A stretch of 64,000 nucleotides of DNA, from NCBI GenBank assembly GCA_024682655.1, contig JAIKYZ010000105.1:19650-83649 (forward strand), read 5' to 3'. The notes beneath the pieces are model-generated. The model did not search any database. It was not told the origin of the DNA and saw only the letters and a program-made list of their open reading frames with translations. Source of the DNA: Treponema sp. (lineage in GTDB: Bacteria; Spirochaetota; Spirochaetia; Treponematales; Treponemataceae). The position numbers and the translations under genes were made by a program. Shown here in pieces: positions 8,326-9,436 of the stretch; position 1 is the stretch's first letter, and each line of letters starts with the position of its first letter.

Positions 8326-8368
8326 AAAATGCGTCAAAATGTCTCACTTTTGACGCATTTTTTTTTGT
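8326..8368 (+). terminator. Rho-independent terminator after the GltS-like gene
   Basis: AAAATGCGTCAAAA ... TTTTGACGCATTTT followed by a T-run. Confidence 0.85.
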
Positions 8369-8542
8369 CTGGGTCAAAAAAGCACAGTAAAAATGGGGAA
8401 TTTCTTCAATTTTTCCAAAAGTGGTCAAAAAGACTCGCTTATTTAATAAAAATTTTACTGAAAGGCAAGAAAATTCGTAAAAAAGATAAAAAAAATCAAA
8501 AATTCGTAAAAAATTCAAAAATTATTTTCTCTTTTTATAACT

Positions 8543-8558
8543 TGGCACGATACTTGCT
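8543..8558 (+). promoter_or_regulatory. Sigma-54 (-24/-12) promoter of the sigma factor gene
   Basis: TGGCACG-ATAC-TTGCT matches the consensus TGGCACG-N4-TTGCW exactly, about 39 bp upstream of the ATG. Confidence 0.85.
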
Positions 8559-8596
8559 ATATATTAAGTGTAAATCAAGTTTTGAGGAGATAAATT

Positions 8597-9436
8597 ATGA
8601 AATACGAAGATGAAGTTCTTTCAATGTACCTTAAAGAAATCAATAAGATTCCTTTGCTTACCCGCGAAGAAGAAACAGAACTTGCTGTTAAGGCAAAAAA
8701 TGGAGATCAGGCTGCAAAAAATAAGATTGTAAATTCTAATCTTAGATTTGTTGTAAATGTAGCTAAAAAATATCAGAATCATGGAATTGATTTAGTTGAT
8801 TTAATCAGCGAAGGTAATATTGGTCTTCTTGTTGCAATTAAAAAATTCGATGTTTCTAAAGGTTATCATTTTATCTCCTACGCAGTATGGTGGATTCGTC
8901 AGAGCATCTTAAAGGCTATTTGCGAAAAGAGTCGTGCTATCCGTCTTCCACTCAACAGAGCTAATGAACTTGTTCAGATTGAACATGCTAAGAAAATTAT
9001 TGGCAGCAACAAGACTGAACAGGAAGAATATGAAGAAATTGCCGCTATGCTTAATATGGAAGCATCACATGTTAGAGAAATGGTAAATATTGCCAAAGAT
9101 ATGGTTTCTCTTGATGCAAAAGTTAATAACGGTGAAGACAACACAAGTATTGCAGACTTCCAGGAAGACAAACTTTATGGTCGCCCAGAAGATAAAGCAA
9201 TTGATAATTCTATGGCAGATGATATCGAAAAAGTTCTTGATACTTTACGCCCAACAGAAGCTAAAGTTATAAGAATGCGCTATGGTTTGAACAATACAAA
9301 ACCAATGTCACTCAAAGAAGTTGGCGATAAATGTGATTTGACAAAAGAAAGAATCCGTCAGATCGAAAAACATGCCATTCAGAGATTGCAGCATCCAACA
9401 AGAGCTCGTCGCTTAGTTGATTACTGTGTAGCATAA
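8597..9436 (+). CDS. RNA polymerase sigma-70 family factor (RpoD/RpoS-type, 279 aa)
   Basis: Regions 1.2, 2, 3 and 4: DLVDLISEGNIGLLVAIKKFDVSKGYHFISYAVWWIRQSI; TKERIRQIEKHAIQRLQHP. Confidence 0.95.
   Translation: MKYEDEVLSMYLKEINKIPLLTREEETELAVKAKNGDQAAKNKIVNSNLRFVVNVAKKYQNHGIDLVDLISEGNIGLLVAIKKFDVSKGYHFISYAVWWIRQSILKAICEKSRAIRLPLNRANELVQIEHAKKIIGSNKTEQEEYEEIAAMLNMEASHVREMVNIAKDMVSLDAKVNNGEDNTSIADFQEDKLYGRPEDKAIDNSMADDIEKVLDTLRPTEAKVIRMRYGLNNTKPMSLKEVGDKCDLTKERIRQIEKHAIQRLQHPTRARRLVDYCVA

Follow-up and report, generated by a model that had tools for sequence, protein, structure and literature searches.

We analysed a 64-kb stretch of the genome of Treponema sp. (assembly GCA_024682655.1, contig JAIKYZ010000105.1, positions 19,650 to 83,649; hereafter the window, whose own numbering is used below), in which a σ54 (RpoN) promoter at 8543–8557 precedes a gene for a 279-amino-acid (aa) σ70-family factor (8597–9436). 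The evidence, which consists of sequence analysis and of published arrays from another species, makes it very probable that this sigma gene and genes for small heat-shock proteins (Hsp20) are driven by one stress switch, in which a histidine kinase, an enhancer-binding protein (EBP) and RpoN act through tandem enhancers. The promoter is conserved across the genus, rpoN and a gene for a suitable activator are present in the genome, and the Hsp20 promoters share both the σ54 site and a conserved enhancer-like motif.

The σ54 promoter is conserved and shared with Hsp20 genes

Reading of the sequence identified TGGCACGATACTTGC (8543–8557), embedded in TTGGCACGATACTTGCT (8542–8558), as a perfect −24/−12 element on the forward strand. 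Both sequence and conservation support its two parts, the −24 element TGGCAC (8543–8548) and the −12 element TTGC (8554–8557), and the last C of the latter (8557) lies 39 bp ahead of the ATG (8597) of an intact 279-aa open reading frame (ORF), as the original prediction had described. No other perfect match to TGGCACN5TTGC occurs in the window, for which base composition predicts 0.04 matches per 64 kb; across the genome, eight were observed where about 1.8 are expected. Four of these eight are located 54–106 bp before genes (the sigma gene, two hsp20 genes and an ORF of 319 aa) and have the common context ACTTGGCACGNNNNTTGCWATAT, while three fall within ORFs and one is intergenic with differing flanks. 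Several perfect or near-perfect matches at other places in the genome fall inside genes and were discounted as chance occurrences.

Sites were scored as the number of matches, out of 10, to the −24/−12 pattern at exact spacing, with the reversed pattern serving as control. Among 90 same-genus orthologues of the sigma gene (55–100% identity), 88 carried a site of at least 9/10 within 250 bp upstream (69 perfect, 19 at 9/10), whereas the control reached 9 in none of the 90 and the chance rate of such a site in a random 250-bp stretch is 0.28%. The two exceptions have sites further upstream, one of 10/10 and one of 9/10. TGGCAC and TTGC were the most constant positions across the 90 orthologues and the flanks were variable; judged by this sequence conservation, the site at 8543 is not a chance match. 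The sigma factor was present in 188 of 196 genus genomes. Outside the genus, sites of 9–10/10 preceded most sigma orthologues of the Spirochaetia type, including that of a T. pallidum-like genome (1.1 Mb, same family; assignment inferred), which has the site TGGCATGATATTTGC, and the small sigma gene of four genomes that we regard from their layout as Borreliaceae-like (1.0–1.5 Mb), in which the rpoS promoter site reads TGGCACGATTTTTGC. No site of 9–10/10 was found before the non-spirochaete relatives of the sigma gene.

The same element precedes Hsp20 genes throughout the genus: all 51 Hsp20 promoters checked had a site of at least 9/10, 38 of them perfect, and the reversed control reached 9 in none of the 51.

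The downstream gene encodes a group-2 σ70-family factor

Pfam detected σ70 regions 1.2, 2, 3 and 4 in the 279-aa protein (8597–9436, forward strand), in agreement with its earlier assignment to the σ70 family. The narrower description as RpoD/RpoS-type calls for a small correction, as the protein scored below the cut-offs of all curated RpoS and RpoD models (252.6 bits against a cut-off of 378.7 for the RpoS model TIGR02394), and for this reason "σ70 family, group 2" is a safer name than "RpoS". The genome encodes RpoD (633 aa, contig C106) and a WhiG/FliA-type factor (C4) separately from it.

RpoN and a candidate activator are encoded in the genome

The original prediction would have been refuted by the absence of rpoN and asked for an EBP to be confirmed as well; both were found. 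RpoN is encoded in the same genome by a full 498-aa frame, and rpoN was detected in 191 of 196 genus genomes, including all 84 good ones. Among the seven PF00158 matches in the genome, one protein (C106:37100-37603) adjoins a histidine kinase, contains the motif GSFTGA and has the receiver (REC), σ54 AAA and Fis-type helix-turn-helix (HTH) domains that define an EBP of the AtoC/ZraR type; AtoC and ZraR were also its best NCBIfam matches, with scores under both equivalog cut-offs. Across the class, an orthologue of this activator retains a GAFTGA-type motif and the HTH sequence GIGRKTL in the recognition-helix region, the ZraR equivalent of which is GITRKTL. Another PF00158 protein has an HTH and no GAFTGA-type motif. 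A second σ54 AAA protein (C146:55491-55976) contains GSYTGA and is devoid of a DNA-binding HTH; it might serve promoters without an enhancer.

A tandem palindrome resembles an AtoC/ZraR-type enhancer

When the regions upstream of the −24 elements were searched for k-mers, TGTGTCAA was recovered in 67 of 161 promoters, compared with 1.6 expected. The corresponding motif, TGTGTCA-WWW-TGACACA, is palindromic, measures 17 bp and in both the sigma and the Hsp20 promoter classes is mostly found 100–240 bp upstream and usually in two copies, with 65 neighbouring pairs exactly 40 bp apart. In the window, the candidate enhancer (upstream activating sequence) comprises copy 1, TGCGTCAAAATGTCTCA, at 8330–8346, which scores 17.3 bits and lies at −213 relative to the −24 element, and, at a distance of exactly 40 bp, copy 2, TGGGTCAAAAAAGCACA, at 8370–8386 (14.7 bits). 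A terminator-like hairpin (8326–8361) that follows the upstream gltS-like gene overlaps copy 1, which may therefore have a double function.

Where a matrix was counted on its own training promoters, the figures are in-sample; this does not apply to the cross-trained and E. coli results. The matrix trained on sigma promoters matched 48 of 51 Hsp20 promoters at 10 bits or more, and the matrix trained on Hsp20 promoters matched 82 of 88 sigma promoters at the same threshold. The sigma-trained matrix gave no other match of at least 10 bits in the rest of the window; the jointly trained matrix gave one extra match (48209, 13.2 bits), inside a tsaD-like gene with no −24/−12 element nearby. The motif extends to sigma factors of 45–60% identity, was matched once in 62 outgroup promoters, and in a matrix scan was absent from the promoter of the T. 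pallidum-like genome and from those of the four Borreliaceae-like genomes. When 7 kb around E. coli zraPSR was scanned, the two best matches (15.0 and 12.7 bits) both fell into the gap between zraP and zraS, a known binding region of ZraR; 407 kb of outgroup DNA contained a single match of at least 12 bits. Because the treponeme matrix picks out this gap, the palindrome looks, by sequence and by analogy, like an AtoC/ZraR-type enhancer.

The orthologous sigma gene and Hsp20 respond to stress in T. denticola

Arrays from T. denticola show that TDE0937, its sigma gene, was induced 2.8-fold by heat, 21.8-fold by oxygen and 14.0-fold by osmotic stress, and the Hsp20 gene TDE1029 was induced 9.5-, 8.5- and 6.7-fold, respectively, in a study that mentions neither a promoter nor a σ54 link for TDE0937 (PMC2965109). 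The published TDE0937 primers match a locus in one of our genomes (G214) at 19 of 20 bases each, and in about 398 kb of that genome the only strict σ54 site, upstream of which lies an enhancer copy, is the one before its Hsp20 gene. The Treponema sp. system thus resembles the core stress response of T. denticola in having an orthologous sigma factor that is induced together with Hsp20, and differs from the published account in the participation of RpoN, an EBP and an enhancer that is proposed here; these would probably account for the stress induction reported for TDE0937 and Hsp20. No promoter work on TP0519, TP1012 or TDE0937 was found in the literature accessible to the search. In its accessible part, a 2025 survey of σ54 regulons associates σ70/32 genes and IbpA with σ54 in general, and links the IbpA cluster with Planctomycetota and Bacteroidota rather than with Spirochaetia.

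Relation to the Borrelia cascade and to ZraSR

The activator is 51–53% identical to the sole EBP of the Borreliaceae-like genomes and is its syntenic orthologue, with a kinase gene and a DNA polymerase delta'-like gene as neighbours in both; these two genes adjoin the activator in most lineages examined. The kinase, activator and sigma genes are adjacent in one lineage (G198), and in the Borreliaceae-like genomes and two others (G311 and G323) the sigma gene lies about 6–7 kb from the activator. The T. pallidum-like genome has the kinase next to its Rrp2-type activator in two separate frames (L382:3638-4941), which may reflect a broken gene or an error of sequencing. The sigma protein is about 35% identical to its Borreliaceae-like counterpart; trees neither grouped nor separated the treponeme factor and Borrelia RpoS (p-AU of 0.296 for a single clade, with a very long Borrelia branch), and they gave no support to a closest relationship with E. 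coli RpoS.

The system therefore resembles the Hk2/Rrp2-RpoN-RpoS pathway of Borrelia burgdorferi in that a σ54 −24/−12 promoter drives a small σ70-family factor in both, and in that the activator and kinase are syntenic orthologues. It differs from that pathway in the conserved tandem enhancer-like sites, which the Borreliaceae-like rpoS promoters lack, and in the predicted co-control of Hsp20. The RpoN-to-σ70 cascade that the original prediction had considered equivalent to that of Borrelia is hence supported as an inference, since the promoter is conserved in the genus and at Borreliaceae-like rpoS and the activator, in a genome that has rpoN, is a syntenic orthologue, but with its enhancers and Hsp20 targets it would not be a copy. 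Rrp2 has been shown to need no enhancer for the activation of rpoS (PMC1976401), and a Borrelia paper describes direct RpoN control of rpoS as unique to that organism's gene (PMC2940757); our data place the promoter logic, the activator and the kinase across the Spirochaetia. On balance, though with considerable reserve, we favour the view that a kinase-EBP-RpoN switch with tandem enhancers spaced by 40 bp, acting on a group-2 sigma factor and in treponemes also on Hsp20, is the ancestral stress response of the Spirochaetia, and that the virulence cascade of Borrelia, and probably the cascade of T. pallidum, is a reduced, enhancer-less descendant. If true, loss of the enhancer would account for Rrp2's otherwise puzzling lack of dependence on one. 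The system is also similar to E. coli ZraSR/AtoSC, which use the same activator family and whose zraP-zraS gap contains two sites found by the treponeme matrix, whereas its targets appear to be a sigma factor and small heat-shock proteins and not zraP.

Proposed mechanism and alternative explanations

According to the proposed mechanism, RNA polymerase with RpoN would wait at 8543–8557 until the NtrC-family two-component activator described above (AtoC/ZraR/Rrp2 type), bound to the palindromes at 8330–8346 and 8370–8386, loops over and opens the complex using ATP, such that transcription of the sigma gene would begin near 8569. The small heat-shock proteins would be driven by the same switch, and its input is for this reason probably a general stress signal, which the sigma factor would then spread to a second tier of genes. 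The exact sequences given here can be named as targets for mutation.

Some observations weigh against this mechanism. The stress role relies on arrays from another species, T. denticola, and the TDE0937-like promoter of G214 scores only 8/10 (TAGCAT). The pairing of activator and enhancer is suggested by co-conservation and by analogy with ZraR, and the HTH-less AAA protein could also play a part. Moreover, the 319-aa gene, which has a σ54 site in 22 of 30 orthologues, is without the enhancer (one weak match in 22 promoters), so that not every σ54 promoter here uses one.

An improbable alternative is that the promoter is σ54-dependent with an activator that works enhancer-free, as Rrp2 does, and that the palindromes serve another regulator, such as a redox or stress repressor. 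The overlap of copy 1 with the terminator-like hairpin would be in line with this; however, the position of the palindromes at −100 to −240 and their tandem spacing of exactly 40 bp speak more for an EBP site than for a repressor site, as does the matrix match to the zraP-zraS gap, and the palindromes occur in both classes of σ54 promoter and in none of the 13 non-genus spirochaete orthologues without a −24/−12 element. We consider it very unlikely that the sigma gene is transcribed mainly from a σ70 promoter (for example through the extended −10 sequence TGCTATATAT, approximately 8555–8564), leaving the −24/−12 element minor or vestigial: the sequence after the −12 element is TATA-rich, but a σ70 promoter scan returned no acceptable −35/−10 pair on the coding strand, and across the orthologues it is TGGCAC and TTGC that are constant and the flanks that vary. 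That the −24/−12 match is a functionless chance sequence is next to impossible, for although matches with at most one mismatch are no commoner in the window than in shuffles, the conservation in 88 of 90 orthologues against 0 of 90 for the control already refutes it, and the genome-wide excess of perfect matches and the linked enhancer speak against it as well.

The 319-aa protein and further features of the promoter region

The 319-aa protein (G000:C122:30722-31678, minus strand) is fast-evolving and was present in 120 of 129 genus genomes. Its structure model had a mean pLDDT of 77.5, and a Foldseek search against the PDB gave weak matches only, the top one being sigma-E (E = 0.87); VIA-align gave Z scores of 6.8 for gp55 over residues 2–118 and of 6.5 for region 2 of sigma-E. 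The modelled likeness to region 2 of sigma-E and phage gp55 is too weak for the protein to be named a sigma factor.

Between the enhancer copies and the promoter, a weak half-site-like sequence, GTGGTCAAAAAGACTCG (8421–8437), scored below the threshold (less than 8 bits) and may be nothing. A ribosome-binding-site-like GAGGAG is located at 8584–8589 on the forward strand. Directly after the −12 element, TATATATTAAGTGTAA (8558–8573, forward strand) is identical at the genome's two hsp20 promoters; it includes the start predicted from σ54 spacing rules at about 8568–8569, and many Hsp20 promoters in the genus share the sequence AGTGWA near +1.
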